Positions 6,417 through 37,400 of a stretch of DNA of 64,000 bases are shown here, piece by piece (position 1 is the first letter of the stretch; each line of letters begins with the position of its first letter). The notes under the pieces are model-generated. The model ran no database searches. It had not been told where the DNA came from and worked only from the letters and a program-made list of their open reading frames with translations. The translations under genes were made by a program, and so were the position numbers. This DNA comes from Gelidibacter salicanalis (GTDB lineage Bacteria; Bacteroidota; Bacteroidia; Flavobacteriales; Flavobacteriaceae), in contig NZ_JAEHJZ010000029.1 of the NCBI RefSeq assembly GCF_016469035.1, positions 33,303-97,302 on the forward strand, written 5' to 3'.

Positions 6417-6460
6417 GTAACCTAGGTTACTGCAAAATGCAATAACAGGTCTTATTTTTG
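6417..6460 (+). promoter_or_regulatory. Crp/Fnr-type operator plus -7 promoter box, copy 1
   Basis: The perfect 14-bp palindrome GTAACCTAGGTTAC (6417-6430) is followed by TATTTTTG (6453-6460), matching the Bacteroidota -7 consensus TAnnTTTG. The operator centre (6423.5) is 29.5 bp before the -7 box, which puts it near -41.5 of a start site around 6465, the class II activator position. The same geometry recurs at 16555-16598 and 31520-31563. It drives the broken HMA gene and the haem lipoprotein. Confidence 0.8.
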
Positions 6461-6512: not shown

Positions 6513-6730
6513 ATGACAAACACCTCAATAGTAGTACAAAATTTAAAATATGGCGGTCACGTATGTAGAAGAACATAAGGTTTCTTTTGATTATCTTGAT
6601 GACGCTGATGCTATTGTTGTCAGAGAAAGATTAAAAGATCTTGGTTACCCTTTCGGTTGAAGATTCCAATTCCTTAACTTCAAAAGCAAAATCTTTTGTG
6701 AGTTGTGCCACGGGTAAGCTATCACAATAA
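6513..6730 (+). pseudogene. Broken heavy-metal-associated (HMA) domain gene
   Basis: Three reading frames together spell one HMA-domain protein. Frame one from the ATG at 6513 gives MTNTSIVVQNLKYGGH and then runs to a stop. The second frame gives VEEHKVSFDYLDDADAIVV and RERLKDLGYP. The third, from about 6653, gives SVEDSNSLTSKAKSFVSC and ATGKLSQ before TAA at 6728. Family members usually read KCGGC at the metal site; here it is KYGGH, and the stretch after it is deleted. So the metal-binding cysteines are gone and two frameshifts are present. The intact protein would have been a small copper- or metal-binding chaperone. It lies right behind the operator-promoter and just before the haem lipoprotein gene. 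Confidence 0.8.
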
Positions 6731-6743
6731 AATAAATCGAATT

Positions 6744-7385
6744 ATGAAAAAAGCTGTTTTAATTGTTACCGTATCTGTCTCATTTTTTAGCTGTAATCAA
6801 GAAAAAAAGACAAACTATATTTCTGTAGAAAATAGACTAGAGAAAAAGACGGTCCCGGAAAAAGTCCAAACAACTTTAGCCGCTGACACAATCTCATATG
6901 CTGACCGTGGCTTACAATATGCGCTAAATACGCAAGCCGTTTTAGGTAAAAATTTAATGACGGCAATTCAAAACAGTGGAACCTTAGGAGCGCTCTCCTT
7001 TTGTAATGAAAAAGCCTATCCACTGACGGATAGTATGGCGGTTTTACAGAACGCAGACCTCAAGCGTGTGACTGACAAACCCAGAAATCCGGCCAATCAG
7101 GCTAATACTACTGAATTGGAGCACGTTGAAACGTTTAAACAGGTTATTGCAAACAAGGAGCTCCCAAACCCTATTGTAGAAGATATAGATGGCAAAGTAA
7201 AAGTCTATTATCCTATTCTTACCAATCAAATGTGCTTACAATGCCACGGAAAGCCAAACAAAAATATTGAACCTTCAACACTTTCTAAATTAACCATACT
7301 CTACCCTGAAGACAAGGCAATTGGATATGGACTGAATGAAGTGAGAGGCATTTGGAGTGTTACTTTTGCTAAAACCAAACGATAA
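6744..7385 (+). CDS. DUF3365 (Tll0287-like) haem-binding lipoprotein
   Basis: This 213-residue protein starts at the ATG at 6744, giving a short lipoprotein signal peptide (SFFSC, Cys17). An upstream in-frame ATG at 6705 falls inside the broken HMA gene and would bury the signal. The C-terminal part has one c-type haem motif, CLQCH (Cys164, Cys167, His168), in the DUF3365 context (VKVYYPILTNQMCLQCHGKP). The family folds like a PAS-type sensor with a covalently bound haem and may be a redox sensor or electron carrier on the periplasmic side of a membrane. It is probably transcribed from the Crp/Fnr-type promoter at 6453, so it may report on or relieve the stress sensed by the regulator. Confidence 0.85.
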   Translation: MKKAVLIVTVSVSFFSCNQEKKTNYISVENRLEKKTVPEKVQTTLAADTISYADRGLQYALNTQAVLGKNLMTAIQNSGTLGALSFCNEKAYPLTDSMAVLQNADLKRVTDKPRNPANQANTTELEHVETFKQVIANKELPNPIVEDIDGKVKVYYPILTNQMCLQCHGKPNKNIEPSTLSKLTILYPEDKAIGYGLNEVRGIWSVTFAKTKR

Positions 7386-7403: not shown

Positions 7404-7662
7404 GCTTTTAAATCATGAGCGTTTGGTAAAACAAGTAAAAAGTTTACAAAGCTAATTAAAGTAAGACCTGGTAAGAGATATTAAAAATGGTACCTTGCTT
7501 TTTGAAACCAATTTTACTTAGAGTGATTGGGCAAATTTAATTTAGAATAACGATTGTTTATCAGTCAGTTAAATTCAAATCTCTGTTCTTTTTCCGATAG
7601 CTATCGGGACTATAAGCGCAGCGATCTTTATTCTTTATCGGACAATAATGCTTTTAAATATA
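7404..7662. repeat. Dispersed repeat R1, copy 2
   Basis: This is the partner of 1232-1486. It fills the gap between the haem lipoprotein and the TPMT-like gene, and ends 8 bp before that gene's ATG. It contains the palindrome CCGATAGCTATCGG and the shared block TTCTTTATCGGACAATAATG. The remnant coding frame readable in copy 1 is shifted and stopped here, so this copy is more decayed. An apparent 39-codon extension of the TPMT-like frame into this repeat is fortuitous. Confidence 0.85.
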
Positions 7663-7670
7663 TAATTACA

Positions 7671-8255
7671 ATGACTTTAACAGAAAATTTCTGGGATACT
7701 CGCTATATAAACAATGATATTGGGTGGGATATGGGTGAAGTTTCTCCACCGCTTAAAGCGTATGTTGATCAGTTGACCGATAAGGATTTGAAGATTCTAA
7801 TTCCAGGTAGTGGTAATTCTTACGAAGCAGAATATTTACACCATAAGGGGTTTAAAAATGTATATGTGGTAGACCTTTCCAAAACCGCACTGAACAATCT
7901 CAAACAACGCGTGCCGTCATTCCCTTCTGAACATTTACTTCACCAAAATTTTTTCGATTTAAAACAGTCTTTTGATTTGATTATCGAACAAACTTTTTTC
8001 TGCGCTATAGATCCTAAATTAAGAATTTCGTATGTTTCCAAAGCTGCTGAACTTCTCAATAAAAACGGCAAAATAGCAGGCTTGCTTTTTGATGCACCTT
8101 TAAATACTGACACACCTCCTTTTGGAGGGCATAAAGCCGAATATCTCAACTGTTTTGAACCACATTTTAATATGTTGACAATGGAACCAGCACACAATTC
8201 CCATCCTTCAAGACAGGGCAAAGAATTATTTGTAAACGTCCAAAAGAAAAATTGA
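7671..8255 (+). CDS. TPMT-family S-adenosylmethionine methyltransferase
   Basis: The 194-residue protein starts at the ATG at 7671 with MTLTENFWDTRY. It has thiopurine-methyltransferase family features: FWDTRY, WDMGEVSPPL, the SAM-binding loop ILIPGSGNSYEAEYL, EQTFFCAI and PPFGGHKAEY. TPMT-family enzymes methylate thiols, thiopurines, and in some bacteria selenium or tellurium compounds or small thiols. A thiol or chalcogen substrate fits the neighbouring sulfur genes. It is the first of four methyltransferases in 3.7 kb. The upstream leader is made of the dispersed repeat, so its native promoter may have been replaced. Confidence 0.85.
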   Translation: MTLTENFWDTRYINNDIGWDMGEVSPPLKAYVDQLTDKDLKILIPGSGNSYEAEYLHHKGFKNVYVVDLSKTALNNLKQRVPSFPSEHLLHQNFFDLKQSFDLIIEQTFFCAIDPKLRISYVSKAAELLNKNGKIAGLLFDAPLNTDTPPFGGHKAEYLNCFEPHFNMLTMEPAHNSHPSRQGKELFVNVQKKN

Positions 8256-8309
8256 GATGGCTTTTAGGATTTATATAGATATTTAGAAAGCACTACTAAC
8301 AATAATTAG

Positions 8310-8921
8310 ATGACTACAAAAGACCATTGGGAAACCATATACGAAAATAAGACTCCTGATCAAGTGAGTTGGACTCAAGATAGACCCACCGTCTCCTTGC
8401 AGTTGATCCAGGATAGAGATCTACCAAAAACAGCCAAAATTATTGACATAGGTGGCGGCGACAGCAAACTTGTGGATTATCTAATTGAAGAAGGGTATAC
8501 GGACATTACTGTACTGGATATTTCTGCCAATGCCATCGAAAAAGCAAAATTACGGTTGGGCGAAAAGGCAAAACATGTGCAATGGATTGTAAGTGATATC
8601 ACGACTTTTAAACCGACAGTGTTATACGACTTATGGCATGATCGGGCAGCGTTTCATTTTTTGACTACCCAGAAGCACATACAAGCTTACGTGGCACTGA
8701 CCAACTCCTTTGTGAACAACAGTTTGATTATCGGAACCTTTTCAAAACAAGGACCTGAAAAATGCAGCGGATTGAAAATTACCCAATATGATGCCGAAGG
8801 CTTAACAAACGTGTTCGGTAAGCATTTCCAAAAAATTGAATGCCTGACTACAGATCACATCACTCCTTTTGACACCGTACAAAATTTTCAGTTTTGTTGT
8901 TTTAAAAACAAGACCAATTAA
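8310..8921 (+). CDS. Class I SAM-dependent methyltransferase
   Basis: This 203-residue Rossmann-fold methyltransferase has motif I in KIIDIGGGDSKLVDYL (about 43-58), an acidic end of strand two in ITVLDIS, and a motif like motif IV in LYDLWHDRAAFHFL. The opening HWETIYENKTPDQVSW is typical of a bacterial group with no agreed substrate. Trp-His-Asp-Arg-Ala after motif IV is a conserved mark of that group. It lies 54 bp after the TPMT-like gene and just before the persulfide dioxygenase fusion, so a small thiol substrate is plausible but unproven. Confidence 0.85.
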   Translation: MTTKDHWETIYENKTPDQVSWTQDRPTVSLQLIQDRDLPKTAKIIDIGGGDSKLVDYLIEEGYTDITVLDISANAIEKAKLRLGEKAKHVQWIVSDITTFKPTVLYDLWHDRAAFHFLTTQKHIQAYVALTNSFVNNSLIIGTFSKQGPEKCSGLKITQYDAEGLTNVFGKHFQKIECLTTDHITPFDTVQNFQFCCFKNKTN

Positions 8922-8974
8922 AAATTATTAATAACCCAGGGTCAATTACAGGACCTCATAAAAAACATGACACT

Positions 8975-10306
8975 ATGACTATTAAACAATTTGAATACAA
9001 ACCCCTCTCCCATTACTCGTACGCCATTGTAAGTGAAGGCAAAATAGCGGTTATAGACCCCGAGCGTGATCCACAACAGTATTACGACTACGCAAAAGCC
9101 AATAACGCGACCATTGTTGCCATACTGGAAACCCATCCACACGCTGATTTTGTGAGCTCTCATCTTGAACTGCATAAAGAAACCGGAGCGACCATCTATA
9201 ACAGTGAAAAATTAGGTGCTGATTATCCGCACCAACCCTTTGATGATGGCGACAGCATAGCACTAGGAAACATCACTATAAAAGCCTTAAACACACCCGG
9301 ACACTCTCCAGACAGTATTACAATTGTGGCTACAGAAGGTGACAAAACAGCTTTGTTTACAGGCGACACACTGTTTATTGGCGATGTTGGCCGTCCCGAC
9401 CTTAGGGAGAAATCCGGTAAGATGAAGGCCAAACGTGAAGAACTGGCTGAAATGATGTACGATACCGTAAACACAAAGTTTAAGGATTTACCAGATAACG
9501 CTATTGTGTATCCTGCACACGGTGCGGGTTCACTATGTGGAAAGAATTTGAGCGAGGCCGCCAGCAGCACTTTAGGCGATGAGCGAAAATTTAATTGGGC
9601 ATTTAAGAAACAAACCAAAGAAGAATTTATTGAGTCCTTATTGGATGGGCAACCGTTTATCCCCGCCTATTTTGGTTATAATGTAGACATTAACAAAGAG
9701 GGTGCTGATAATTTAGAGCCTTCGATTGCAGAAATTCCATTTGCTAAAAAGACTACTGCTTCAGGACTCATCATTGATATGAGAACTGAAGAAACCTTCA
9801 AAAAAGGCCATTTAAAGGGAAGTTTCAATATTCAGGCAGCATCTGATATTGATAAATTTGAAACTTGGTTAGGTGCCATTGTGAAGCCAAAAGAAACATT
9901 TACTCTGGTTATTGACGCAAAGGAAAACAAGGATAAACTCTTAGATCGTTTGGCTAAGATTGGTTACGAAAAACAGGTCAAGCAAGTCATTACGCTAGCT
10001 GATGAAAACCTTGAGAAATCGGAACAATTGGATTTGGCCGATTTTAAAAAGAATCCTGATAATTATACGATTGTAGATGTTCGTAATACAAGTGAGATTG
10101 ATGAAGGCAAGTTTTTTGAAAACGCTTTAGCACATCCACTGCACGAGTTACGACATACCGCCGAGAATATTCCAACAGAGAAACCTATTGTAGTCCATTG
10201 TGCTGGGGGCTACCGTAGTGCAGCAGGAAGTAGTATCCTGGAAAGCGAATTAAAAGGCGCCACCATTTACGATTTGAGTGATGACATAGAACAATTTAAA
10301 AATTGA
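8975..10306 (+). CDS. Persulfide-dioxygenase-like MBL fold / double rhodanese fusion
   Basis: The 443-residue protein has an N-terminal metallo-beta-lactamase domain (about 1-250) with THPHADFVSSH (His54, His56, Asp58), TPGHSPDS and GDTLFIGDVGRPDL. This is the pattern of persulfide dioxygenase/CstB-type enzymes. Two rhodanese modules follow (about 255-345 and 355-443). Only the second has a catalytic loop, HCAGGYRS with Cys409; the first has no cysteine where the loop should be. The known reaction class is oxidation of glutathione or low-molecular-weight persulfide to sulfite, with sulfur transfer by the rhodanese. It points to detoxification of sulfide or persulfide. The next gene overlaps its stop by 4 bp. 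Confidence 0.92.
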   Translation: MTIKQFEYKPLSHYSYAIVSEGKIAVIDPERDPQQYYDYAKANNATIVAILETHPHADFVSSHLELHKETGATIYNSEKLGADYPHQPFDDGDSIALGNITIKALNTPGHSPDSITIVATEGDKTALFTGDTLFIGDVGRPDLREKSGKMKAKREELAEMMYDTVNTKFKDLPDNAIVYPAHGAGSLCGKNLSEAASSTLGDERKFNWAFKKQTKEEFIESLLDGQPFIPAYFGYNVDINKEGADNLEPSIAEIPFAKKTTASGLIIDMRTEETFKKGHLKGSFNIQAASDIDKFETWLGAIVKPKETFTLVIDAKENKDKLLDRLAKIGYEKQVKQVITLADENLEKSEQLDLADFKKNPDNYTIVDVRNTSEIDEGKFFENALAHPLHELRHTAENIPTEKPIVVHCAGGYRSAAGSSILESELKGATIYDLSDDIEQFKN

Positions 10307-10752
10307 GCCTAAAAACACCGATAAAGGATTATGGTTTTGTAGTAGGGCAACTACTGCTTTTTTTGGCCTATGTTGTACCTTTGCAACTATATAAAATACA
10401 ACTACCCGAATGGCTATGCTATTCGGGTTTGTTTATTTTGGGAGTTTTTGTTCTGTTTGGAATAGTGGCGCTCTTACAATTAAACACGAAGCTCTCCCCG
10501 TTTCCATCACCCGTTGCATCTGGCAAGTTGATTACCAATGGCGCATTCCGTATGTCCCGGCATCCCATTTATACGGCTTTGCTCTTTTCGGGGTTTGGAT
10601 ATGCTCTTTATGTCTCATCGCTTTATAAAGTGCTGATCACAGGAATTCTTCTCCTTTTATTCTATTATAAATCCGTTTATGAGGAGATCTTATTGATCCA
10701 AAAATATCCAGATTATTACAATTATAAACAAAGAACACGTCGCTTTATTTAA
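10303..10752 (+). CDS. Membrane methyltransferase of the ICMT/PEMT-like family
   Basis: This 149-residue membrane protein has four hydrophobic segments. The C-terminal motif FRMSRHPIYTALLFSGFG is the hallmark of isoprenylcysteine carboxyl methyltransferase/phospholipid methyltransferase-like proteins. The start is a TTG at 10303 overlapping the TGA of the previous gene; no ATG in frame precedes the first membrane segment, so coupling to the persulfide gene is likely. Relatives include enzymes that methylate hydrogen sulfide and methanethiol (MddA) as well as many of unknown substrate. The protein is shorter than MddA, so that is only a hypothesis. Confidence 0.75.
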   Translation: MSLKTPIKDYGFVVGQLLLFLAYVVPLQLYKIQLPEWLCYSGLFILGVFVLFGIVALLQLNTKLSPFPSPVASGKLITNGAFRMSRHPIYTALLFSGFGYALYVSSLYKVLITGILLLLFYYKSVYEEILLIQKYPDYYNYKQRTRRFI

Positions 10753-10757
10753 ACCTT

Positions 10758-11363
10758 ATGAAAGAATCAAAGAACAATTTTTGGAACCAACGTTACGATG
10801 CTGAAGATTACGTGTATGGTACCTCACCAAACGATTTCTTTAAAGAGCAGCTGACCAAAATCAACAAAGGAGACCTTCTATTGCCAGCAGAAGGAGAAGG
10901 AAGGAATGCCCTATATGCTGCAAAACAAGGCTGGAATGTTATGGCTTTTGATAGTAGTGAAAGCGGTAAACAAAAGGCCTTAAAACTGGCCTCAGAGCAC
11001 AAGGTAGCGTTCAACTACGAAGTGAAAGACGTGTTGTCTTTTAAGACGAATGAACGATTTGATGTTCTAGGCTTGATTTATGCCCATTTTCCGAAGGATA
11101 TCCGTAAATCGGCCAATCAGTATTTGCTACAATTTTTAAAGCCCAATGGAACGGTCATTTTTGAAGCCTTCGCAAAAGAACAATTAGCAAATGCTTCAGG
11201 CGGGCCAAAAAATTTGGATATGTTATTTTCAATTGAAGACATACAAAATGAGTTTTCTGGATTGGAATTTGAGTTATTGCAACAACAAACCATCCAACTA
11301 AACGAAGGCGAACACCATAAAGGTAAAGCGGAGGTGATTCGCTTTGTAGGCAGGAAGAAATAA
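10758..11363 (+). CDS. Class I SAM-dependent methyltransferase (TehB-like)
   Basis: The 201-residue protein begins FWNQRYDAEDYVYGTSPNDF, typical of TehB-like methyltransferases. It has the SAM motif LLPAEGEGRNALYAA (about 41-55), AFDSSESG and a motif around GLIYAHFP. TehB-like proteins are linked to tellurite resistance in some species but are mostly uncharacterised. It starts 5 bp after the membrane methyltransferase, so the two are surely in one transcript. Its stop faces the SoxB-like gene on the opposite strand. Substrate unknown; small chalcogen or thiol compounds are reasonable candidates from context. Confidence 0.85.
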   Translation: MKESKNNFWNQRYDAEDYVYGTSPNDFFKEQLTKINKGDLLLPAEGEGRNALYAAKQGWNVMAFDSSESGKQKALKLASEHKVAFNYEVKDVLSFKTNERFDVLGLIYAHFPKDIRKSANQYLLQFLKPNGTVIFEAFAKEQLANASGGPKNLDMLFSIEDIQNEFSGLEFELLQQQTIQLNEGEHHKGKAEVIRFVGRKK

Positions 11364-11391: not shown

Positions 11392-12819
11392 CTAAACCAA
11401 ACGAAAACTGTCAATTCTATCCGGACTGAAATCTCGATACTCTTTTAAGTAAGCTTTCATCGCAGCCACGGCTTTTTGATCATGAGCTTTCCGATTCTTA
11501 CCGTATTTTTTGGACACCCCTTGTGTAGTTACAAAGCTTACTGTATACGACTTGGTCATATCAAGATGTGCTCCGTTGTAAAAAATCTCTTGAATCCGAT
11601 GCCCATTAGGGTTTTCAATCCGCATGTTAATTTGCAGTCCTAAAACCCGTTTGACATAGCCACCCATTTGCCCGAACGGATCCTTGCAAAACGTCCGTTC
11701 CAAATTTTCTTCTAACATTTGCTTGATTTCTGCACCAGTCAACACAACGGTAGACACTGGTGGATTCATTGGCGTGATATTGTAGAGATCATTCTCTGTA
11801 ATGTCTCCTATTCCAATTGGCGCTCCATAACGCCATCCGTTGGAAAATGCAATCTCCGTGTTAGTAGCATGAGCGATGGCCTTCAACAGAAAATTATCCA
11901 TGGTGGAGTTGATGGTATTGTACCGATGTAAAACAGTATCTGTACGACCTAACACCACCGTTCTTATAGCTTTATAAGGCTCCAGAGCCTTCTCTACCAA
12001 AATCTCTACGGCAGCACTTTTAGGAATTGAACTGTCAATTTTTATAAGTTCATAATTGGAATTTTTAATTTTATTCTCTTTAATCTCAAGACTGAATTTG
12101 CCCATAAATGCACCATGGCAACCACATTGAACAATCTGTGCGCCGTTGATCTCTATAGGGCTGTAAATTCGGTTGTGGGTATGTGCACTCAAACAAATGT
12201 CAATACCCTCTACTTGTTTTAAAAGTTCCACATCTTGAGGAAATCCGTTATGAGAAAGCAACACAATTACATCTGCGCCATCTGATTTTAGTTGTTGGAC
12301 ATATTTTGGAACCTCCTCAACACCAGATGTAAATTTGAGCCCCCCACCCATCTTCTCGGGCATGACCTTATCTACAATCATCGCACAAACACCGATCACG
12401 CCTATTTTAACGCCTTCTTTTTCATAGAGTGCTGTAGGTTGCAAAAAATTGGAGCCATTCTCTTTGTACACATTGCAACCCAAAATTGGAAACTTCAATT
12501 GGTTGTTAATCTGCTGTAGTTGTTCGGGTCCATAACCAAAATCCCAATGGCCAACCCAGGCATCGGGTTGTAGTGCATTTAAAATTGGAATAATGGCTTC
12601 TCCCTTTGAATCAACCAAGGGTTTGGTGCCATGTAAGGTATCACCACCATCAAATAAAAGCGTATTCGGGTTTTCTTTTCTAATAGTTTCCACCAATCCT
12701 GCAATATGGGCGTACCCGCCCGCCGTTTGTACCACTTCGCCCGATGCGTCGTAAAACAATTCCGAATGTGGCGCTAAGTAACCGTGGACGTCGTTTATGA
12801 ATAAGATGTTCAGTTTCAT
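11392..12819 (-). CDS. SoxB/5'-nucleotidase-like metallohydrolase, apparently cytoplasmic
   Basis: This 475-residue two-domain protein has a metallophosphatase domain followed by a 5'-nucleotidase C-terminal domain. Metal motifs are INDVHG (Asp10, His12), DGGDTLHG (57-64), GHWDFGYG (90-97), LLSHNG and SAHTHN. Ordinary 5'-nucleotidases read GNHEFDYG at the third motif; SoxB thiosulfohydrolases read GHWEFTYG, and this protein resembles SoxB there. No signal peptide is visible, unlike SoxB. The ATG at 12819 was chosen because the longer frame starts at a TTG. It is the last gene of the DoxX-DsrE-SoxB-like-TlpA run. Activity could be on thiosulfonate-type sulfur or on nucleotides. Confidence 0.82.
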   Translation of the reverse strand: MKLNILFINDVHGYLAPHSELFYDASGEVVQTAGGYAHIAGLVETIRKENPNTLLFDGGDTLHGTKPLVDSKGEAIIPILNALQPDAWVGHWDFGYGPEQLQQINNQLKFPILGCNVYKENGSNFLQPTALYEKEGVKIGVIGVCAMIVDKVMPEKMGGGLKFTSGVEEVPKYVQQLKSDGADVIVLLSHNGFPQDVELLKQVEGIDICLSAHTHNRIYSPIEINGAQIVQCGCHGAFMGKFSLEIKENKIKNSNYELIKIDSSIPKSAAVEILVEKALEPYKAIRTVVLGRTDTVLHRYNTINSTMDNFLLKAIAHATNTEIAFSNGWRYGAPIGIGDITENDLYNITPMNPPVSTVVLTGAEIKQMLEENLERTFCKDPFGQMGGYVKRVLGLQINMRIENPNGHRIQEIFYNGAHLDMTKSYTVSFVTTQGVSKKYGKNRKAHDQKAVAAMKAYLKEYRDFSPDRIDSFRLV

Positions 12820-12922
12820 ACCTTTAATGTGTTTCTTACTTGTAAGTTCCAATAAATTTGTGATGATTCCTAAAAGGGATAATACTCTGATTTGAATTTA
12901 TCATCCCTTTTTAGAATGTATG

Positions 12923-13558
12923 CTATTTCAAACTCTTTAAAAAGTCTTTGAACTCTGAGTTGCTATAATCTGCCATGCCTTTATGGGTCAATGCCAAGTT
13001 ACCTGCAGCATCAATCACATAAGTAGTCGGAATTGCCGAGGATTGGTACATTGGTGGCAAGTTACTCGCCGGGGCATAAATTGGCAGATTGTAACCTTTG
13101 CGTTTGTCAAAGGCTTTGGCCAATTCAAAATCCTGATCCAAGGACAGAATTACAAAAGCCACCTCATCACCCATCTCTTCGTGTAATTTATCGATGCTTG
13201 GCATTTCTGCAATACACGGTGGACACCAAGTGGCCCAAAAGTTCATAAAAATAACCTTGCCTTTCAAATCTGCAAGAGATGTGATGTTTCCGTCCCTATC
13301 CATTAATTTAAGACTAAAATCAGCTTTAGTTGCTGCTGGTAAAGTTGTAGCCTCACTACTGGAATTATCTGCATGTCGCACTTCAGTTATGTCCTTGACA
13401 TCAGGATTCATCAATCCGGTGGCCAATAGTCCGCGTTGCGCAAAACCAATCACTTCTGTATGTAAGCCTGTTGCATAAAGCGCAATGGCTATAACGGCAA
13501 AAATGCCGTATTGAATCCAAGTTCTCTTCGCGTTTTTATCGTTCTTATCTTTTTTCAT
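12923..13558 (-). CDS. TlpA-like membrane-anchored thioredoxin
   Basis: The 211-residue protein has one N-terminal membrane segment (about 14-34) and a periplasmic thioredoxin fold. The active site is FWATWCPPCIAEMP with Cys112 and Cys115. AIPTTYVIDAAG supplies the cis-proline loop. TlpA/ResA-type proteins reduce periplasmic disulfides, for example in cytochrome c maturation; SoxW in sulfur-oxidation clusters is the same type. It sits 12 bp downstream of the lipoprotein SoxB-like gene and upstream of the second SoxB-like gene, which favours a SoxW-like role in keeping a sulfur enzyme reduced. Confidence 0.9.
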   Translation of the reverse strand: MKKDKNDKNAKRTWIQYGIFAVIAIALYATGLHTEVIGFAQRGLLATGLMNPDVKDITEVRHADNSSSEATTLPAATKADFSLKLMDRDGNITSLADLKGKVIFMNFWATWCPPCIAEMPSIDKLHEEMGDEVAFVILSLDQDFELAKAFDKRKGYNLPIYAPASNLPPMYQSSAIPTTYVIDAAGNLALTHKGMADYSNSEFKDFLKSLK

Positions 13559-13570: not shown

Positions 13571-15229
13571 TTATTCAAATTTATATGCCGACCCGGGTAC
13601 GGTTGAAAACGAATACGTGCCTAAATATTCACAGTACGCTCTCCCTTCTAATGTTGGTGATACTGGCGAATTTTTCTGAAGGTACTCTTCTACAGCCTCA
13701 TGAATCGTGTAATCCTTTACCTCTACATCCTTAACGTTAGGCATCCTACATAAATTATCGAGTGGATCACCAGGACGCACACAGGCAGAAACCGTGTAAT
13801 AGTCATCATCCTTCATTTCTTCACCTTTAACGATGACACTGGAAATTCGGTGCCCTCTCTCGTTTTGACTGCTAAAACTGACTTTCATTCCTGAAAATCG
13901 CACTAACCAGCCCCCAAAACGTTCCGTTGGATTCTGAGAAAACGCATTGTGCATTTCTTTTTCCAACCAATCCTTAATCTGTTTCCCTGTAGCTCTTCCG
14001 GTTTTTACAGGTTCATTCACTGGCAGTAAATTCCATAGATTAGCTCTTGTGATTGCCGCGGGATTGCCGTCTTCAGGCACAATCGGGTTCCCAAATCTAA
14101 ATCCGTTGGAAATGGCGATATCCGCACCTGTTTTCCAACGCGCGGCATCGGTAATCATATTGTCCATTGGGTTTTCAACCGTTAAATATCTATAAATTGG
14201 TGTGCTTGTATGGCCGACCACCGTTTCCAAATAGTCTTTATAGGGCGCTTTTTCTTCGTCAATTAAGGCTTGTAAGGTTTCATCGGCTTTATAAACTTCA
14301 GGATCGACATCCATCAATTCATAATCATCACCGACTAATTTACCGTCAACAAAATGTAAGGTTAACTTCCCTACAAAGGAACCGAAGGCACCGGGCTCCG
14401 TAACTTTAGCATATTTCCCTACGATTAATTCGCGGACGCGCTCATGCGTATCGTTACCCAATATATAATCGACATTTTCAGCAATAGGATTACTGGCCAG
14501 CTCCACTTGTTTAAAAATCCCGATATGCGTCACCAAAAAGAGCACATTAACCTCCTCATTGATTTTAAAGGCGTCGATCATGGTTTTCAAGTCAGCATCC
14601 AATCCGCTAAAGCCAATCCCTTCACTAAAAATAGGATTTTGTCGCACAGGTACATCAGGATCATTAATGCCAACAAAGCCAATACGCACACCTTCAATTT
14701 CTTTCACCCAAGAGGCTGGAAATAGTGGTTCTTCGTTAGCTTCGTGATACATGTTTTGAACGATAACTTCTGTCCCGTAGTCTTGCATTACATTCATCAT
14801 AATGTCTTTGCCGTAAACCACTTCCCAATTACCGGGTATAATGACATCATACCCCATATTCTTAATAATATTGGGCATCACTTTCCCTTCAGATAAGGCG
14901 GTATAGCCACTCCCCTGAATTAAATCCCCTCCATCCACAATAATAGTGCGGTTAGGATTTTTTTGCCGTTCTTGGTCGAAAAGCGTTTTAATATTTGCCA
15001 GTCCGCCCCTATTTTTAAAGACGACTTGATCATTCTCCCAAAATAATTCAGGATGTGTATCCAACTGTCCGTGAATATCGGCTGTTTGCAGGATGGTAAT
15101 GCTCAAGGTGTCCTTCGCTATTACATTACTTGCCACTGCGTTGGAGGCTTCCGTTTTACAAGCTACTGTTACCATTAGTATTACAATAAGTGCCGCCGAT
15201 TTCAATAGTGTTTTTTTAAATGTTTTCAT
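13571..15229 (-). CDS. SoxB/5'-nucleotidase-like lipoprotein
   Basis: This 552-residue protein has a lipoprotein signal (TVAC, Cys24), a metallophosphatase domain and a 5'-nucleotidase C-terminal domain. Motifs are TADIHGQ (Asp51, His53), DGGDLIQGS (99-107), GNWEVVYG (133-140), LVTHIG and GNDTHE. The third motif is a hybrid of the nucleotidase GNHE and the SoxB GHWE forms. In the last motif the first His of the usual GHTH is replaced by Asp. The enzyme is therefore probably active but with altered metal coordination or substrate. Two residues separate it from the DsrE gene upstream, so they share a transcript. It is a distant paralogue of the gene at 11392. Confidence 0.85.
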   Translation of the reverse strand: MKTFKKTLLKSAALIVILMVTVACKTEASNAVASNVIAKDTLSITILQTADIHGQLDTHPELFWENDQVVFKNRGGLANIKTLFDQERQKNPNRTIIVDGGDLIQGSGYTALSEGKVMPNIIKNMGYDVIIPGNWEVVYGKDIMMNVMQDYGTEVIVQNMYHEANEEPLFPASWVKEIEGVRIGFVGINDPDVPVRQNPIFSEGIGFSGLDADLKTMIDAFKINEEVNVLFLVTHIGIFKQVELASNPIAENVDYILGNDTHERVRELIVGKYAKVTEPGAFGSFVGKLTLHFVDGKLVGDDYELMDVDPEVYKADETLQALIDEEKAPYKDYLETVVGHTSTPIYRYLTVENPMDNMITDAARWKTGADIAISNGFRFGNPIVPEDGNPAAITRANLWNLLPVNEPVKTGRATGKQIKDWLEKEMHNAFSQNPTERFGGWLVRFSGMKVSFSSQNERGHRISSVIVKGEEMKDDDYYTVSACVRPGDPLDNLCRMPNVKDVEVKDYTIHEAVEEYLQKNSPVSPTLEGRAYCEYLGTYSFSTVPGSAYKFE

Positions 15230-15231: not shown

Positions 15232-15654
15232 TTAGAGACTAAGGCTTTTATATCCCTTCTTCTGGAGTTGGAAATTATACAGAATACCATTTTCTACGGT
15301 GGTCATTTTACTTGGGACCTTGGTTTTATCAACTTTAAATTTATTCAGCGAAAAACCACAGGCTACTAATTGTACCCCTGCTTTTTCAGCCTTTTCAATA
15401 AAGGTATTGATCTTTTCAGGATCAGTAATATCACCTATTTCCTTCCCACATATAATGACTTGAAAATCGCCAAATGCATCGCATTCTTCAGCTTTTAGCG
15501 CCTCAGCCGTTAAAATAATGGGTTGTAATTGTGCTACCTTTTTGGTAAGTACCACGTAGTTATTTTTGCCGTTTGTAACATCTTGTGCAGTCATATGATT
15601 TGTTGTAACTAATGTGAGTATAAAAAATAGGGAACTAAAAATGTATGTTTTCAT
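15232..15654 (-). CDS. Exported DsrE-like sulfur-relay protein
   Basis: The 140-residue protein has a cleavable signal peptide (to about residue 23, MTAQD) followed by a DsrE/DsrF-like fold. Cysteines are Cys58, Cys69 and Cys99; the last, in LVACGFSLNKF, lies where family members place the persulfide-carrying Cys. DsrE-like proteins carry sulfane sulfur between enzymes; most are cytoplasmic, and exported forms accompany periplasmic sulfur chemistry. It lies between DoxX and the lipoprotein SoxB-like gene with only 2-6 bp spacing, so it is in the same operon and is a plausible sulfur donor for them. Confidence 0.82.
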   Translation of the reverse strand: MKTYIFSSLFFILTLVTTNHMTAQDVTNGKNNYVVLTKKVAQLQPIILTAEALKAEECDAFGDFQVIICGKEIGDITDPEKINTFIEKAEKAGVQLVACGFSLNKFKVDKTKVPSKMTTVENGILYNFQLQKKGYKSLSL

Positions 15655-15660: not shown

Positions 15661-16059
15661 TTATTTTAAAAGTTTATCAGTGTCGTTCAGTATAAAAAAA
15701 AGAAGTCCACCTAAAATTGCAATGTTTTTAAATAAAGGGCCGAGTGTTGTGATCTGTCCCACTTGAACCGTTAAAGAGATGGGAATTAAAATAGCCATCA
15801 AAATGATTGCCGCCCATTTGGTTTTATATCCTATAAGGAATAAAAATCCGGCGCCCAGCATGGCAATACCTGACAGAATGATAAGCCATTGCGGTTCGCC
15901 AAAAAAATGTGCGATGCCTTTAAAGCTTGCCTGCTCTATGCGTTGTGCCGTTTTTTCTACGTGTATCAGGTGATTAAACCCTGCGACCAGAAATATGCCG
16001 CTGACCATAATGCGTAATACCTGTATAGAACGGCGACTGATTGAAATGTGTGTCGACAT
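15661..16059 (-). CDS. DoxX-family membrane protein
   Basis: The 132-residue protein has four hydrophobic segments, with GIFLVAGFNHLIHVEKT near the first and the usual GxxFLIGYKTKWAA turn. DoxX-family proteins include the quinone-linked subunit of thiosulfate:quinone oxidoreductase; others are of unknown function. Its place directly upstream of the DsrE and SoxB-like genes supports a role in passing electrons from periplasmic sulfur to the quinone pool. The promoter may be the operator-controlled one at 16555, with the small secreted protein gene between them. Confidence 0.82.
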   Translation of the reverse strand: MSTHISISRRSIQVLRIMVSGIFLVAGFNHLIHVEKTAQRIEQASFKGIAHFFGEPQWLIILSGIAMLGAGFLFLIGYKTKWAAIILMAILIPISLTVQVGQITTLGPLFKNIAILGGLLFFILNDTDKLLK

Positions 16060-16180: not shown

Positions 16181-16561
16181 TTATGCCCAGCGTGGTGGTG
16201 GAGAAACGCTTTCTAAATAGCGATAATTTAATTTTGAAGGCAGATGATCATCCAACACTCTTATGTGATCTGAATGATTGATATGCCATGATAGCAATTC
16301 TAAATGAAACGATGTTGTACACTGTCCACTTAAGCTTAACATCTCTTTGGAACTATCTTGATCCTGATCTGAGAAATTTTGTTTTTTTGAACTGGAATCT
16401 GAGTCAACATGCTTTTTACAAAACGGATTTACAAAGGTGATATCATTACCACTCAACAATGTGTTAAGTGCGTGTGCATCTATGGCAACAAATTTTGCCA
16501 TAAATATAAATGTTAAGAGGAGCGCTATGTAAGTTTTAGGTTTCAAAGATCTTACAAACAT
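16181..16561 (-). CDS. Small secreted His/Cys-containing protein of unknown function
   Basis: I do not recognise this protein. The longest frame is 126 residues, with a hydrophobic signal-like segment (about 9-30), then a soluble part with FCKKHVDSDSSSKK, several His and two Cys, ending SPPPRWA. The ATG at 16561 lies inside the -7 box of the operator-controlled promoter, so it cannot be the start of that transcript. A TTG at 16546, which would keep the signal peptide on a nearly leaderless message, or the ATG at 16501 are alternatives. It is the first gene of the leftward run into DoxX (121 bp away). Metal or sulfur binding is only suggested by composition. Confidence 0.6.
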   Translation of the reverse strand: MFVRSLKPKTYIALLLTFIFMAKFVAIDAHALNTLLSGNDITFVNPFCKKHVDSDSSSKKQNFSDQDQDSSKEMLSLSGQCTTSFHLELLSWHINHSDHIRVLDDHLPSKLNYRYLESVSPPPRWA

Positions 16562-16598
16562 AGGGGAAACAAACCCGTTTTTATGTAACCTTTGTTAC
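16555..16598 (-). promoter_or_regulatory. Crp/Fnr-type operator plus -7 promoter box, copy 2
   Basis: The operator GTAACAAAGGTTAC (minus strand, 16598-16585) precedes the -7 box TATGTTTG (16562-16555). The centre-to-box distance is 29.5 bp, identical to the copies at 6417 and 31520. The predicted start site is near 16550. It should drive the small secreted protein and, by read-through, the DoxX-DsrE-SoxB-like-TlpA-SoxB-like operon. Confidence 0.8.
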
Positions 16599-31519: not shown

Positions 31520-31563
31520 GTAACATAGGTTACTGACCAGCATCGGTATCTCACGTACCTTTG
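31520..31563 (+). promoter_or_regulatory. Crp/Fnr-type operator plus -7 promoter box, copy 3
   Basis: The operator GTAACATAGGTTAC (31520-31533) is followed by the -7 box TACCTTTG (31556-31563). The centre-to-box distance is again 29.5 bp. The predicted start site near 31568 lies 16 bp before the TolC gene's ATG at 31584. It should activate the efflux locus. Confidence 0.8.
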
Positions 31564-31583
31564 CGGCATATATGATTATACAC

Positions 31584-32894
31584 ATGAAAAAGAAGCTACT
31601 TATTTTAACCTTTGCATCCTTTGGATTCACCACAATGATTCAGGCGCAAGAGGTGATACCAATTTCTAAAAATGAAGTTTTAGACAAGGTTAGCCAGGAT
31701 AATATCTCGTTAAAAATATCGGAACAGGAGTTTTTTGAGGCCAGAGCCGATTACAGACAAACAAACGCGGTTTTTCTGCCCAATATCACTGCAAGTCACA
31801 CGGGCATTGCAACGACTAATCCGCTTATGGCTTTCGGGTCTAAGTTGAATCAGGAGATTTTAACCCAAAGCGATTTTAATCCTGCAACGCTCAATGATCC
31901 GTCCCAAATTGAAAGTTTCACTACGAAATTTGAAATTCAGCAACCGCTAATCAATTTAGACGGTTTGTTCCAACGTAAAGCCGCCAAGTCAAAAATGGAG
32001 GCTATGGCTCTAAAAACAGAACGCACCTCTGACTATTTGAAATTTGAAGTAGAAAAAGCTTATATGCAATTGCAATTGGCCTATAAAGGGGTTGACGTAT
32101 TGGAAAAAGCCTATAATGCTGCACTGGCCAATAAAGAATTAGCCGACAACAGTTTTAAGCAAGGTTATCTTCAACGTGCCGATGTTTTAAATGTGGAAGT
32201 TCGTGTTACTGAAGTCCAAAACCAATTACAAACGGCAAAAAGTAATGTGCAAAATGCTTCCAATTACCTATCATTTTTAATGAATGATGAAACTTATGTA
32301 GCCTATATGCCTACGGACAGTTTAACCGTTTCTGTTACCACGATGGAAAACCATAGTATTTCAGAAAATCGTTCAGACATTAAAGCCATGCAATTGGCAA
32401 CAAACGCCTACGAAGCGATGAACAAAGCAGATAAAATGGCTTTCTTACCAAGATTAAATGCCTTTGGAAGTTTTGAATTATATGATGATCAAATTTTTCA
32501 GGCCGATGCCAATGGCTATTTATTTGGAGCACAATTGACCTGGGATATTTTTCAAGGTTCAAAACGCTTTGGGAAGACGCAAAAAAGTAGAGCAGAATTT
32601 GAAAAATCAAAATTGGAATACACCCAATACGTATCACAAACCAATTTAGAATTAAACAAAGCAAAGCGAGCGTTTTTAGATGCTGAAAATAAATTAAGGC
32701 TGACTACTTTAGCTTTAGAGCAATCTGAAGAATCCTTAAGAATCAGAACCAACAGGTTTAAAGAAGGGTTAGAAAAAACATCCGATTTACTAATCGCCGA
32801 AACCCAATTCGCCCAAAAGCAATTGGAATATTACCAAACCATTTTTGAATTCAATTACGCACAAGCGTACTTAGAGTTTCTAACTAAAGACTAG
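31584..32894 (+). CDS. TolC-family outer-membrane protein of the RND pump
   Basis: The 436-residue protein begins MKKKLLILTFASFGF, a signal peptide ending near QAQE. The ATG at 31584 is preferred over one at 31572, which would lie only a few bases from the predicted transcription start and spoil the signal. It has the duplicated TolC fold with long coiled coils. It is the first gene of a three-part RND pump and is 70 bp from the adaptor gene. It is only distantly similar to the TolC at 19618. Confidence 0.92.
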   Translation: MKKKLLILTFASFGFTTMIQAQEVIPISKNEVLDKVSQDNISLKISEQEFFEARADYRQTNAVFLPNITASHTGIATTNPLMAFGSKLNQEILTQSDFNPATLNDPSQIESFTTKFEIQQPLINLDGLFQRKAAKSKMEAMALKTERTSDYLKFEVEKAYMQLQLAYKGVDVLEKAYNAALANKELADNSFKQGYLQRADVLNVEVRVTEVQNQLQTAKSNVQNASNYLSFLMNDETYVAYMPTDSLTVSVTTMENHSISENRSDIKAMQLATNAYEAMNKADKMAFLPRLNAFGSFELYDDQIFQADANGYLFGAQLTWDIFQGSKRFGKTQKSRAEFEKSKLEYTQYVSQTNLELNKAKRAFLDAENKLRLTTLALEQSEESLRIRTNRFKEGLEKTSDLLIAETQFAQKQLEYYQTIFEFNYAQAYLEFLTKD

Positions 32895-32964: not shown

Positions 32965-34044
32965 ATGAAAAAATATATCTACCTATTATCCTTAACTACA
33001 GCTTCTTTATTTATGACGAGTTGCGGTAGTGAAGACAAAAAAGCAGTTGCTGATACTACCCCAGCAATTCCTGTAACTGTTAGTCAAATTACAGCAAATA
33101 ACACCAGTCCGTTTTTATCAGTAAGTGGAAAGATCCAGGCCACTAACAGTGCCGATTTAAGCACCAGAATAATGGGCTATGTCAATAAAGTGCACGTTAA
33201 TGTTGGCGATAAAGTAAAAAAAGGACAATTATTGGTATCTATCAACAATACAGATTTACAGGCCAAACAAGGGCAAGTTAATGCTGGTATTACTGAAGCA
33301 ACAGTAGCCTATAATAATGCGAAGAAAGATTATAACCGCTTTCAAAGTTTATTTGCAGACAATAGTGCCTCTCAAAAAGAATTAGATGATAGGACGGCCA
33401 ATTTTGAAATGGCAAAAGCGCGTTTAGAATCTGCCAAACAAATGAAAAATGAAATCAACGCCCAATTTGCCTATAGCAATATTACTGCTCCTTTTAACGG
33501 CACAGTAACCAGTAAAAGCATTGAAACTGGAGACATGGCGAATCCTGGGGTTCCATTAATAAGCATTGAAACCCCTGGAAATTTTGAAGTGATGGCCATG
33601 GTGCCTGAAACAGAAATTTCACAAATTAAAAAAGGCTCTGAAGTGAGTGTGTTGGTTAAATCGATCAACCAAACCTTGAAAGGGAAAGTAGTTGAAGTAA
33701 GTACTTCAGCTAAAAATACAGGCGGACAATATTTAGTAAAGATTGATCTAGATAAAACGGACGCGAATATACTTTCTGGCATGTTTGTAAGTGTACAGTT
33801 TCCGGTTGAAAAACAATCTGCAACCGAATTGATTTTAATTCCAGCGGAAGCCGTCATCACCAACGGTCAACTAACCGGTGTGTATACGGTAAGCCAAAGC
33901 AATACGGCCATTTTACGTTGGTTGCGTTTAGGAAGAACTTTTGGAGATCAAGTAGAAGTCTTATCAGGTTTAAATTCTGACGAGGCCTATATTGTTTCTG
34001 CAGAAGGTAAACTTTACAATGGTGCTAAAATTACAATTCAATAA
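32965..34044 (+). CDS. RND efflux periplasmic adaptor lipoprotein
   Basis: The 359-residue protein has a lipobox (MTSC, Cys20), a lipoyl hairpin around a short coiled coil (about 60-185), then beta-barrel and membrane-proximal domains (ILIPAEAVITNGQLTGVY). ITAPFNGTVTSKSIETGDM is the characteristic lipoyl return strand. It connects the RND permease to TolC. It lies between the two in the operon. Confidence 0.93.
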   Translation: MKKYIYLLSLTTASLFMTSCGSEDKKAVADTTPAIPVTVSQITANNTSPFLSVSGKIQATNSADLSTRIMGYVNKVHVNVGDKVKKGQLLVSINNTDLQAKQGQVNAGITEATVAYNNAKKDYNRFQSLFADNSASQKELDDRTANFEMAKARLESAKQMKNEINAQFAYSNITAPFNGTVTSKSIETGDMANPGVPLISIETPGNFEVMAMVPETEISQIKKGSEVSVLVKSINQTLKGKVVEVSTSAKNTGGQYLVKIDLDKTDANILSGMFVSVQFPVEKQSATELILIPAEAVITNGQLTGVYTVSQSNTAILRWLRLGRTFGDQVEVLSGLNSDEAYIVSAEGKLYNGAKITIQ

Positions 34045-34205: not shown

Positions 34206-37200
34206 ATGAAAGAAGGAATCGCAGGAAAAATTGCCAAAGTATTTATACAATCAAAGCTCACAGTGCTTCTGATGATTGTATTTATGGTTGTTGGTGTGTA
34301 CAGCTCGTTTTTAATTCCGCGTGAGGAAGAGCCACAAATTGATGTGCCAATGGCTGATATTTTTGTGGGCTATCCTGGTGCAAGTCCGACGGAAGTAGAA
34401 TCGCGCGTCATTAAGCCATTAGAGCAATTAATATCCAATATTAAAGGTGTGGAATATGTGTATTCTACCTCCATGAAAGAACAAGGGATGGTTATCGTCC
34501 AGTTTTATGTGGGTGAGGATATTGAACGTTCGTTTGTAAAACTATACAACGAAATCAATAAACACATGGACCAGATGCCGGCAGGGGTGACGTTTCCGCT
34601 TGTTAAAACACGTGCTATTGACGATGTACCCATGCTAGGTTTAACCTTATGGAGTGAAAATTATGACGATTTCCAATTAAGCCAAATGGCGCAAGAATTG
34701 GAAGACGAAATAAAGAAAGTAAATGACGTGGCCATAACCCATAAAATTGGTGGTAGAGAGCGTCAAGTACGTGTGGTTTTAGATAAGGATAAATTGGCAG
34801 CTAGCGGCTTGGATTTCTTGTCTGTTTCAGAAATGATCAAGGCGAATAACAGTCAGTTAAGCTCCGGCAGTTTTGATAAAAACGATACTGAATTTTTAGT
34901 AAATACAGGCAAGTTTTTAGAATCGGCTACAGATGTAGAAAATCTTGTAGTAGGTGTGCAACAGAACAGACCAATTTATTTAAAGCAAGTTGCCAGCATA
35001 ATTGACGGTCCTGAAATTCCACTGAATTATGTGAGTTTAGGGTTTGGACAAGGCAGTGACAAAGCATTCGATTACAAATCAGATTATCCCGCAGTAACCA
35101 TTTCAGTTGCCAAACGAAAAGGTGCTGATGCCATGAAACTCTCTGAAATTATTATTGATAAAGTGGAGCGTTTGCGCAGCACCTTAATTCCTGATGATGT
35201 CCATGTAGAAATTACTAGAAACTATGGTGAAACAGCTTCTGATAAAGTGTCGGAACTGCTTTGGCACCTCATAGGATCTATCTTTGCAGTGACTCTTGTT
35301 GTGATGCTCGCTATGGGATGGCGTGGTGGATTGGTCGTGTTTTTATCCGTACCAATTACATTCGCATTGACTTTGTTGAGCTATTATATGATGGATTACA
35401 CCCTCAACCGAATTACGCTTTTTGCATTGGTTTTCGTTACGGGAATAGTGGTAGATGACTCCATTATTATCGCAGAAAATATGCATAGGCATTTTAAAAT
35501 GAAACGTTTACCGTTTAAGCAAGCCGCTTTATATGCCATTAATGAAGTAGGAAATCCTACCATACTAGCAACGTTTACAGTCATTGCGTCCGTATTGCCT
35601 ATGGCTTTTGTTTCCGGATTAATGGGACCCTATATGGCACCAATGCCAATTGGAGCATCTATTGCCATGATATTATCACTATTTGTCGCCTTAACCATTA
35701 CACCGTATTTAGGGTATATTTTCTTGAGAGAAAAGAATAGAAAAGGAGTGACTCCAAAACAAGAAAAACCTTTAGAAGACACGTTTATTTACAGAATTTA
35801 CAACAAGGTTGAGCGTCCTTTATTGGAAAATAGCGGCAAACGTTGGTTGTTTTTAGGCGGTACCTTTGTGGTGTTGATGGCTACAATGGTATTGTTCTTT
35901 ACCAATTCTGTAGCCGTAAAAATGTTACCGTTTGACAACAAGAATGAATTCCAGGTGGTTATTGATATGCCAGAAGGCACAACGTTAGAACGTACAGGAG
36001 TTGTTGCCCAAGAGATTTCTCAATATTTATCGACACGTCCTGAAGTGGTGAACTACCAAAATTATATTGGCACCTCTGCTCCTATTACTTTTAATGGTTT
36101 GGTGCGTCATTACGATTTACGTGGTGGTAGCAATATGGCGGATATTCAAGTGAATCTCATTAGTAAAAATGACCGTTCAGCGCAGAGTCATGACATTGCG
36201 AAACTGTTGCGTCCTGACATTCAGAAAATTGCTGCAAAATACAATGCGAACGTCAAATTAGTAGAAGTCCCACCAGGACCTCCTGTATTATCGACCATTG
36301 TTGCTGAAGTTTATGGACCAGATTACAATCAGCAAATAAAGATTGCAGACCACATTCAAGACATTTTGAGAAACACGGACGACGTGGTTGATATTGATTG
36401 GATGGTTGAAGATGATCAAGTTGAATATCAATTTGAAATCAATAAAGAGAAAGCCATGTTATACGGCGTAGCGCCCCAGCAAATTGCCTACACCATGAAT
36501 ATGGCTCTATCAAACAACGCCATCACCACCTTATATGATGAGGATGCCAGCAAACAGGTAAGCTTGGTGTTAACTTTGGATGAAAAGGAAAAATCGACTA
36601 TTTCAGATATTTCCCAACTTAAAGTAACCTCTAAACAAGGCAATATGGTACCCATTGCAGATTTGGTGACTATTACTAAAGGTACTGCCGCAAAGAGTAT
36701 TTACCGTAAAAACCAAAAGCGTGTGGTATATGTGTTAGCGGATATGGCAGGTGAGTTGGAAAGTCCAGCATATGCTATTTTAGGAATGGAAGATAAACTA
36801 AAGGAAATCCCTTTACCTGAGGGTTATGAGCTGAATGAATTGTATTTGGGTCAGCCCGATTATGAAGACAACTATACCGTAAAATGGGATGGTGAATGGC
36901 AAATTACCTTGGAAGTCTTTAGAGATTTAGGAATCGCATTTTTAGGGGCCATTATCTTGATATACATATTAATCGTAGGTTGGTTCCAAAACTTTAAGGC
37001 CCCAATTGTGATGATGGTAGCCATTCCATTATCCTTGATCGGAATTATTTTGGGCCACTGGATTATGGGCGCATTCTTTACCGCAACCTCATTTATTGGG
37101 ATGATTGCACTGGCGGGAATTATGGTGCGGAACTCGGTATTGTTAATTGACTTTATCAATCTCCGTACTGCCGATGGCATCCCATTAAAACAAGCCTGTA

Positions 37201-37400
37201 TTGAAGCAGGAGCTGTGAGAACCACACCTATTCTGTTAACGGCAGGAACGGTGGTCATTGGTGCCTTTGTGATCTTATTTGACCCCATATTTCAAGGGTT
37301 AGCCATTTCACTAATGGGCGGAACCATTGTGTCAACAGTATTGACCTTGCTGGTTGTACCATTGGTTTATTATATGATAGAAAAGAAGAATTATAAATAA
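34206..37400 (+). CDS. RND-superfamily efflux permease
   Basis: The 1064-residue protein has the twelve-segment RND layout with two large periplasmic loops. It carries the paired acidic residues of segment four in GIVVDDSIIIAENMHRHF, used for proton coupling, and the conserved AGIMVRNSVLLIDFINL of segment eleven. It resembles HAE1-type multidrug pumps more than strict copper pumps, but its companions (PII-like, DUF2892, rhodanese) suggest a metal or sulfur-linked substrate. The 161-bp gap before it contains a hairpin, TTTTTTTGC with GCAAAAAAA (34131-34159). Confidence 0.95.
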   Translation: MKEGIAGKIAKVFIQSKLTVLLMIVFMVVGVYSSFLIPREEEPQIDVPMADIFVGYPGASPTEVESRVIKPLEQLISNIKGVEYVYSTSMKEQGMVIVQFYVGEDIERSFVKLYNEINKHMDQMPAGVTFPLVKTRAIDDVPMLGLTLWSENYDDFQLSQMAQELEDEIKKVNDVAITHKIGGRERQVRVVLDKDKLAASGLDFLSVSEMIKANNSQLSSGSFDKNDTEFLVNTGKFLESATDVENLVVGVQQNRPIYLKQVASIIDGPEIPLNYVSLGFGQGSDKAFDYKSDYPAVTISVAKRKGADAMKLSEIIIDKVERLRSTLIPDDVHVEITRNYGETASDKVSELLWHLIGSIFAVTLVVMLAMGWRGGLVVFLSVPITFALTLLSYYMMDYTLNRITLFALVFVTGIVVDDSIIIAENMHRHFKMKRLPFKQAALYAINEVGNPTILATFTVIASVLPMAFVSGLMGPYMAPMPIGASIAMILSLFVALTITPYLGYIFLREKNRKGVTPKQEKPLEDTFIYRIYNKVERPLLENSGKRWLFLGGTFVVLMATMVLFFTNSVAVKMLPFDNKNEFQVVIDMPEGTTLERTGVVAQEISQYLSTRPEVVNYQNYIGTSAPITFNGLVRHYDLRGGSNMADIQVNLISKNDRSAQSHDIAKLLRPDIQKIAAKYNANVKLVEVPPGPPVLSTIVAEVYGPDYNQQIKIADHIQDILRNTDDVVDIDWMVEDDQVEYQFEINKEKAMLYGVAPQQIAYTMNMALSNNAITTLYDEDASKQVSLVLTLDEKEKSTISDISQLKVTSKQGNMVPIADLVTITKGTAAKSIYRKNQKRVVYVLADMAGELESPAYAILGMEDKLKEIPLPEGYELNELYLGQPDYEDNYTVKWDGEWQITLEVFRDLGIAFLGAIILIYILIVGWFQNFKAPIVMMVAIPLSLIGIILGHWIMGAFFTATSFIGMIALAGIMVRNSVLLIDFINLRTADGIPLKQACIEAGAVRTTPILLTAGTVVIGAFVILFDPIFQGLAISLMGGTIVSTVLTLLVVPLVYYMIEKKNYK

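Follow-up and report, generated by a model that had tools for sequence, protein, structure and literature searches.

Among described regulators, the closest by operator is HcpR2, an FNR-like Crp/Fnr protein whose half-site GTAACnnnnGTTAC was published in 2005, which carries a residue other than Glu (a Pro) at the position of CRP 181, and whose predicted targets in most of its genomes are hcp alone, according to the available part of the source (PMC1274295). Closest by function are FisR, SqrR/BigR and CstR, which control sulfur-detoxification genes, several of them with more than one cysteine as far as the available text describes (PMC9774590), and which belong to the Fis, ArsR and CsoR families, none being Crp/Fnr. 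Two CRP-type proteins also come near, Crp of Acinetobacter baumannii with a persulfidated cysteine and Vfr of P. aeruginosa with glutathione as a thiol ligand, neither of them tied to a sulfur-detoxification regulon in the part of that source available (PMC7315123). Here we analysed a window of 64,000 nucleotides from Gelidibacter salicanalis (contig NZ_JAEHJZ010000029.1), in which a Crp/Fnr-family regulator and three operator-promoter sites probably belong to one regulon, with the regulator as a class II activator that would respond to reactive sulfur through Cys77, Cys83 and Cys84. This regulator shares with CRP and class II Crp/Fnr activators the fold, the equivalents of R180 and R185 and a site near -41.5, and differs from CRP in the loss of the Glu72 equivalent, in the cysteines within its cassette, in a Bacteroidetes -7 box and in its operator. 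Compared with HcpR2, it has a Val, three cysteines, sulfur targets and no accompanying hcp.

Exact matches to GTAAC-N4-GTTAC occur at three places in the window (Table 1), all at the positions given in the earlier note, against a shuffle expectation of 0.03 and with none of 100 shuffles reaching three. At each a TAnnTTTG box starts 22 bases past the palindrome, so the 29.5 bp from palindrome centre to box that had been reported is true of every site. The adjacency of site 1 to the regulator gene likewise stands, with the figure corrected from 6 bp to five bases, as the stop codon ends at 6411 and six is the coordinate difference. At site 2 the box TATGTTTG overlaps the listed ATG of the first open reading frame, so that the true start codon is probably further down.

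Across the 5.16 Mb draft genome (682 contigs) the palindrome by itself shows no enrichment (14 places against 22 for the reversed control); taken alone it therefore means little, and we rejected it as a signal. TAnnTTTG stands exactly 22 bases past the palindrome at five of the 14 places, three of these in the window, and four other boxes lie at scattered distances within the roughly 100 bases scanned on each side of the 14. Allowing up to two mismatches gave no enrichment of the composite (12 matches versus 15 for the control), so exact sites alone are informative and exact sites were counted. The two sites outside the window precede a Thioredoxin_9 protein on contig C662 and a DsrE protein on contig C673, and for each of the five at least one of two congeners (L176-L182) has a site ahead of a gene of the same kind.

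Table 1. Regulator, operator-promoter sites and neighbouring genes in the window.
Feature	Position	Strand	Basis
Crp/Fnr-family regulator P0001, 210 aa	5779..6411	+	PF13545 and PF00027 above cut-off
Operator site 1, GTAACCTAGGTTAC	6417..6430	+	Exact palindrome; site likewise 3' of regulator in Gelidibacter loci L196-L200
-7 type promoter box TATTTTTG of site 1	6453..6460	+	22 bases past site 1
HMA-domain gene remnant, frame broken	6514..6700	+	Three-frame translation; tblastn HMA-cluster match 6565-6696
Tll0287-like haem-binding protein	6705..7385	+	PF11845
TPMT-like methyltransferase	7554..8255	+	PF05724; regulon-cluster match from 7671
SAM methyltransferase, possible operon member	8310..8921	+	PF13649
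Metallo-beta-lactamase (MBL) fold + rhodanese protein, persulfide dioxygenase-like	8975..10306	+	PF00753 + PF00581; cluster of commonest regulon gene
PEMT-type membrane methyltransferase, possible operon member	10303..10752	+	PF04191
SAM methyltransferase, possible operon member	10758..11363	+	PF13649
Second metallophosphoesterase/5'-nucleotidase, possible operon member	11392..12852	-	PF02872; 31% to SoxB-like cluster
Redoxin/thioredoxin-like protein	12923..13558	-	PF08534
SoxB-like metallophosphoesterase/5'-nucleotidase	13571..15229	-	PF02872/PF00149; 92% to regulon cluster
DsrE-like protein (weak)	15232..15654	-	DrsE_2 E=0.0019, DsrE E=0.011, both below cut-off
DoxX	15661..16059	-	PF07681
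Small leading protein of DoxX operon (cluster 18)	16181..16561	-	No Pfam match
-7 type box TATGTTTG of site 2	16555..16562 (read 16562-16555)	-	22 bases past palindrome
Operator site 2, GTAACAAAGGTTAC as minus-strand reading	16585..16598	-	Same operon preceded by site in two congeners (L176, L181)
Operator site 3, GTAACATAGGTTAC	31520..31533	+	Same pump kind preceded by site in congener G244 (L182)
-7 type box TACCTTTG of site 3	31556..31563	+	22 bases past palindrome
RND pump outer-membrane efflux protein	31572..32894	+	PF02321; homology starts 31584
HlyD/CusB-type membrane fusion protein	32965..34044	+	PF16576
RND transporter	34206..37400	+	PF00873
Rhodanese protein beyond pump, possible operon member	38432..38827	+	PF00581

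The scan of relatives for motif plus spacing that the earlier note had proposed was strongly positive. The exact composite has 323 copies in 165 of 249 same-family genomes, against three for the reversed pattern as read from the table, and the 23 alternative spacings from 23 to 45 yielded 72 matches in total, about three per spacing and of the same order as that search's reversed control. A search over 296 genomes of the phylum found it in 26. Sorted by eye, these were 16 of the 30 family members (own genome among them), 1 of 6 from other families of the order, 9 of 37 from other orders of the class, and none of the 223 from other classes. Eighty named loci of regulator homologues revealed 199 palindromes (4 in the reversed control), TAnnTTTG following at spacing 22 in 101 of them, with a single case at each of 11 other spacings; the strict composite is absent from 20 of these loci, and 62 of the 99 unique sites lacking the strict box carry TAnnTTTA in its position. 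Shuffles, reversed control, spacing controls and the counts at homologue loci together reject a chance origin of the composite.

The bases around the operator are also conserved. In 98 strict sites, T stands at -1 in 94% and at -3 in 84%, and an asymmetric T-G directly 3' of the palindrome (70% and 78%) ends 20 bases before the box. Bacteroidetes promoters combine a -33 TTTG/TTG element with a -7 box. As the conserved T-G ends where the -33 element would end, the operator apparently extends over the upstream promoter element, the arrangement of class II activation, and together with the fixed spacing of 22 (101 cases versus single others) this fits the proposal of a class II Crp/Fnr activator at about -41.5. 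We infer binding, and activation rather than repression, from this arrangement. SqrR and BigR, of the ArsR family, and CstR, of the CsoR family, act as repressors in the available part of their source (PMC9774590), and the present regulator might by analogy be a repressor that leaves its operator on sulfide stress; yet the operator keeps a base-exact distance from the -7 box, which is what contact with polymerase would call for, and it sits where the -33 element would be, so that the promoter should need help, which makes repression very unlikely.

The best candidate to act as such an activator is the regulator encoded next to site 1. Its cNMP-binding-like domain and Crp-type HTH (PF00027 at 30.1 bits and PF13545 at 32.1 bits, both above cut-off) place it in the Crp/Fnr superfamily, and the Pfam scan found these two domains alone, with nothing of the ArsR, CsoR or Fis families; no NCBIfam model scored above its cut-off. 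Foldseek matched it to CRP-family structures, and the AlphaFold model confirms the fold only. In its own genome it is the sole match at E<=1e-25, and the closest named regulators, from Gelidibacter species, are 87-90% identical. Presence of the site follows the strength of the homologue: where this reaches E<=1e-70, 129 of 142 genomes carry the site, versus 36 of 107 others (Fisher p 7.5e-22, a value that ignores shared descent), the latter comprising 29 of 54 at 1e-58 to 1e-70 and 7 of 53 for the rest. The exact site is missing in 13 of the 142, and two congeners have sites yet regulators only about 50% identical to ours. A second regulator group has the exact palindrome in 4 of 30 loci, counting 1.5 kb flanks.

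Adjacency points the same way, with the site starting at most 400 bases past the regulator stop in 39 of the 80 named loci and at most 28 bases past it in 36. Christiangramia and Maribacter loci (L266, L269, L275, L207, L237) hold regulator and sites together. Among the 100 sites fetched, 22 have the regulator gene immediately before them in the same orientation and five have it behind them as the first or second gene, and this adjoining position suggests autoregulation in some genomes. Eight further PF13545 matches are found in the genome, two of them below cut-off, and one such protein (locus L028) has an R-non-Glu-R helix, SRAVFNR. Other regulators of the genome are disfavoured as the binder by adjacency and by the covariation described below.

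Positions equivalent to CRP 180, 181 and 185 have been related to operator bases, as stated in the available part of PMC1274295. The recognition helix here reads S181-R-V-V-I-S-R187, where Arg182, Val183 and Arg187 align with Arg180, Glu181 and Arg185 of CRP, and Val183 is found in 81 of 81 aligned sequences (the regulator plus 80 homologues). We compared residue 183 with operator flanks in 205 homologues made up of the close, second-group and class-wide sets, of which 172 have Val and 33 Glu. Within the stretches searched beside each gene, the motifs at the Val genes were GTAA/TTAC in 112, GTAA/TCAC in 7, GTGA/TTAC in 2, GTGA/TCAC in 1 and none in 52, a few having two kinds; those of the Glu genes were GTAA/TTAC in 0, GTGA/TCAC in 7, mixed in 5 and none in 21, and several Glu-type sites retain the box at spacing 22. 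This gives p=1.5e-11, a figure that ignores descent, with many Val rows being close relatives, at least one genome counted twice (L067, L202), five loci lost for want of a match or for a protein under 150 aa (L337, L342, L351, L373, L375) and two excluded deliberately (L307, L308).

The same trend, weaker, appears at genome level in 62 genomes of the class, where the GTAAC/GTTAC composite (strict rows only, picked by eye from a looser GTAA/TTAC search) occurs in 16 of 30 Val versus 4 of 32 Glu genomes and the GTGA/TCAC composite in 12 of 30 versus 24 of 32. Class-wide, that looser search matched 69 of 247 genomes with about 40 reversed-control matches by our own count, and the GTGA/TCAC composite 70 of 247 with three, sites that other CRP-like proteins could use. 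This covariation is the best evidence, from comparison of sequences, that the regulator itself reads these sites, and with co-occurrence and adjacency it upholds the earlier choice of this protein as the candidate binder.

The window sites carry the operator word of HcpR2. They could belong to an HcpR-type nitrosative stress regulator, known for the same motif GTAACnnnnGTTAC and for controlling hcp in Bacteroides, Clostridium and Thermotogales (PMC1274295, in the part available), but the hcp model TIGR01703 has no match in 100 family genomes versus matches in 5 of 14 control genomes, hcp is not among the named first genes behind the 100 fetched sites, and the residue of the regulator that aligns with CRP 181 is Val instead of Pro. 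We rejected this assignment on the hcp counts and consider it extremely unlikely; with hcp missing from all 100 genomes, what we see would be another regulon that uses the operator word of HcpR2.

Evaluating what lies behind the sites, we fetched 100 of the 323, from 53 genomes, and report raw counts without a gene-family background, under names that each derive from a single cluster member (for the pump, DoxX and regulator clusters, from their match to a window protein). The first genes encode an RND outer-membrane protein 19 times (19 genomes), MBL-rhodanese 18 times, TauE 16 times plus one by eye (L096), SulP and Thioredoxin_9 seven times each, the DoxX-operon leader six times plus one by eye (L191), DUF983 four times and a YgaP-type protein three times. 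Peroxiredoxin, rhodanese, the regulator and a DsrE-like protein follow with two each, and ten singles include SQR, cytochrome bd, YeeE, HMA, thioredoxin, P5C dehydrogenase and one without a name (L188). By our own grouping 58 of the 100 first genes are sulfur-related (MBL-rhodanese 18, TauE 17, SulP 7, DoxX operon 7, YgaP-type 3, rhodanese 2, DsrE-like 2, SQR 1, YeeE 1). Anywhere in the short operons behind the 100 sites, where two close sites count the same operon twice, MBL-rhodanese occurs in 44, a persulfide dioxygenase/sulfurtransferase-like target as judged by sequence family only, followed by TauE (20), rhodanese (15), YeeE-type (11 and 8), thioredoxin (11), SulP (8), TPMT (7) and SoxB-like (5).

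No sulfur role is obvious for the RND pump or for the Tll0287 haem protein. For 13 of the 19 sites before a pump, the best match to the regulator is found on a different contig or at a distance of over 30 kb, so synteny is not the explanation for the pump. Cytochrome bd oxidase genes also stand behind the same operator in some genomes (L169 of G049, and L204), and bd oxidases resist sulfide.

The earlier note had foreseen a response to reactive sulfur, thiol or metal stress; the targets fit reactive sulfur, whereas metal genes are not prominent among the named groups, a naming that took multi-member gene groups, so that rare metal genes could have escaped among single-member ones. The HMA domains, RND pump, peroxiredoxins and thioredoxins among the targets, together with three cysteines that could bind a metal, would suit the same regulator and regulon with a metal, oxygen, peroxide or electrophile as effector, acting at a thiolate metal site or a plain disulfide. 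Against this, the commonest targets are sulfur genes, as the operon counts for MBL-rhodanese, TauE, YeeE-type and SulP indicate, and we regard a non-sulfur effector as unlikely.

Behind site 3 of the window the RND pump locus is as previously described. At site 2 the predicted DoxX-DsrE-SoxB-like operon holds for DoxX, whereas the DsrE match stays below cut-off; the DsrE-like protein clusters with the one behind the site on contig C673, which itself matches DsrE at 7e-7, and the representative of the SoxB-like cluster matches the SoxB model TIGR04486 at 3e-81, below the curated cut-off. At locus 1, described as an HMA/haem-lipoprotein locus, the HMA part is not intact, its frame being broken. 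Five Gelidibacter loci (L196-L200) have the order regulator, site, TauE, site, MBL-rhodanese, (rhodanese), HMA, Tll0287, thioredoxin, TPMT, and that of the window is regulator, site, broken HMA, Tll0287, TPMT, another methyltransferase, MBL-rhodanese, which makes locus 1 resemble an abridged version of that sulfur operon. HMA matches in L196-L200 span 258-264 bases, and the frame broken in the window, apparently whole in relatives, may reflect decay of the gene or faulty assembly of the draft. Four methyltransferase genes (one TPMT, one PEMT, two general SAM) are packed round the MBL-rhodanese gene at 7554-11363, a group that may serve thiol or sulfide methylation.

The cysteines of the regulator may connect this target set to a signal. 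Its only cysteines, Cys77, Cys83 and Cys84, are invariant in the 81 aligned close members, and in the wider set Cys77 is kept in 205 of 205 and the full triad in 178 of 205, with Cys84 and sometimes Cys83 replaced in more distant members. Aligned with CRP by profile, the three cysteines lie in the stretch of its cyclic-nucleotide cassette, and another residue stands in the place of Glu72. The cysteine loop of the AlphaFold model is poor (pLDDT <50 at 79-84) and unreliable there. A conserved dithiol is shared with persulfide-sensing regulators, and by analogy with SqrR, CstR and FisR (PMC9774590) the most probable switch is a dithiol accepting sulfane sulfur. CX5C is also kept in one Thiothrix and one Thioclava homologue and in the solved Eubacterium protein 3dv8. 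Six loci (L290, L291, L294, L374, L376, L377) keep Cys77 and the R-V-V-x-S-R helix with Gly or Ser at 83/84, perhaps another sensor on the same operator. Homologues in plasmid and phage collections are all below 60% identity (36 and 2 records). Distant cysteine-bearing ones adjoin TauE-MBL-YeeE genes on the Spirosoma plasmid pSLIN02 (L306), a DUF2892 gene on a Thiothrix plasmid (L307) and MBL-sulfurtransferase-sulP genes on a Thioclava plasmid (L308).

Taken as a reactive-sulfur activator, a dimer of the regulator would bind TGTAAC-N4-GTTAC centred 29.5 bp before TAnnTTTG, with the operator centre about -41.5 from the start and over the place of the -33 element, and would recruit RNA polymerase by class II activation. 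Persulfides, polysulfides or sulfide would turn it on by sulfuration or by a polysulfide bridge from Cys77 to Cys83/84. Among the targets, MBL-rhodanese would then oxidise persulfide, TauE, SulP and YeeE would move sulfite, sulfate and other sulfur compounds, and thioredoxin and rhodanese proteins would reduce or transfer sulfur. The TPMT-like protein perhaps methylates thiols, the DoxX, DsrE-like and SoxB-like proteins may handle periplasmic sulfur, and the RND pump would move something out of the cell.

The earlier note had called this regulon undescribed. Its operator word is not new, being the HcpR2 motif, whereas for the regulon itself we found no description: a literature search returned no Crp/Fnr sulfur regulon and no sulfide/persulfide-defence regulator in Bacteroidota, an absence weakly tested since the slash spelling 'Crp/Fnr' was probably partly missed. 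The chances are about even that these proteins form an unrecognised Crp/Fnr branch in which the nucleotide pocket has become a CX5C(C) persulfide sensor, a master activator of reactive-sulfur defence with the RND pump as a standing member, spread through Bacteroidia and related to proteins of Proteobacteria and Firmicutes. That a sulfur regulon should repeatedly include an RND pump raises the question of what the pump exports, and the Val/Glu swap in the helix together with the A/G swap in the operator offers a natural test for protein-DNA recognition. Because the site is so regular, the members of this regulon can be read off many genomes of the large family Flavobacteriaceae.
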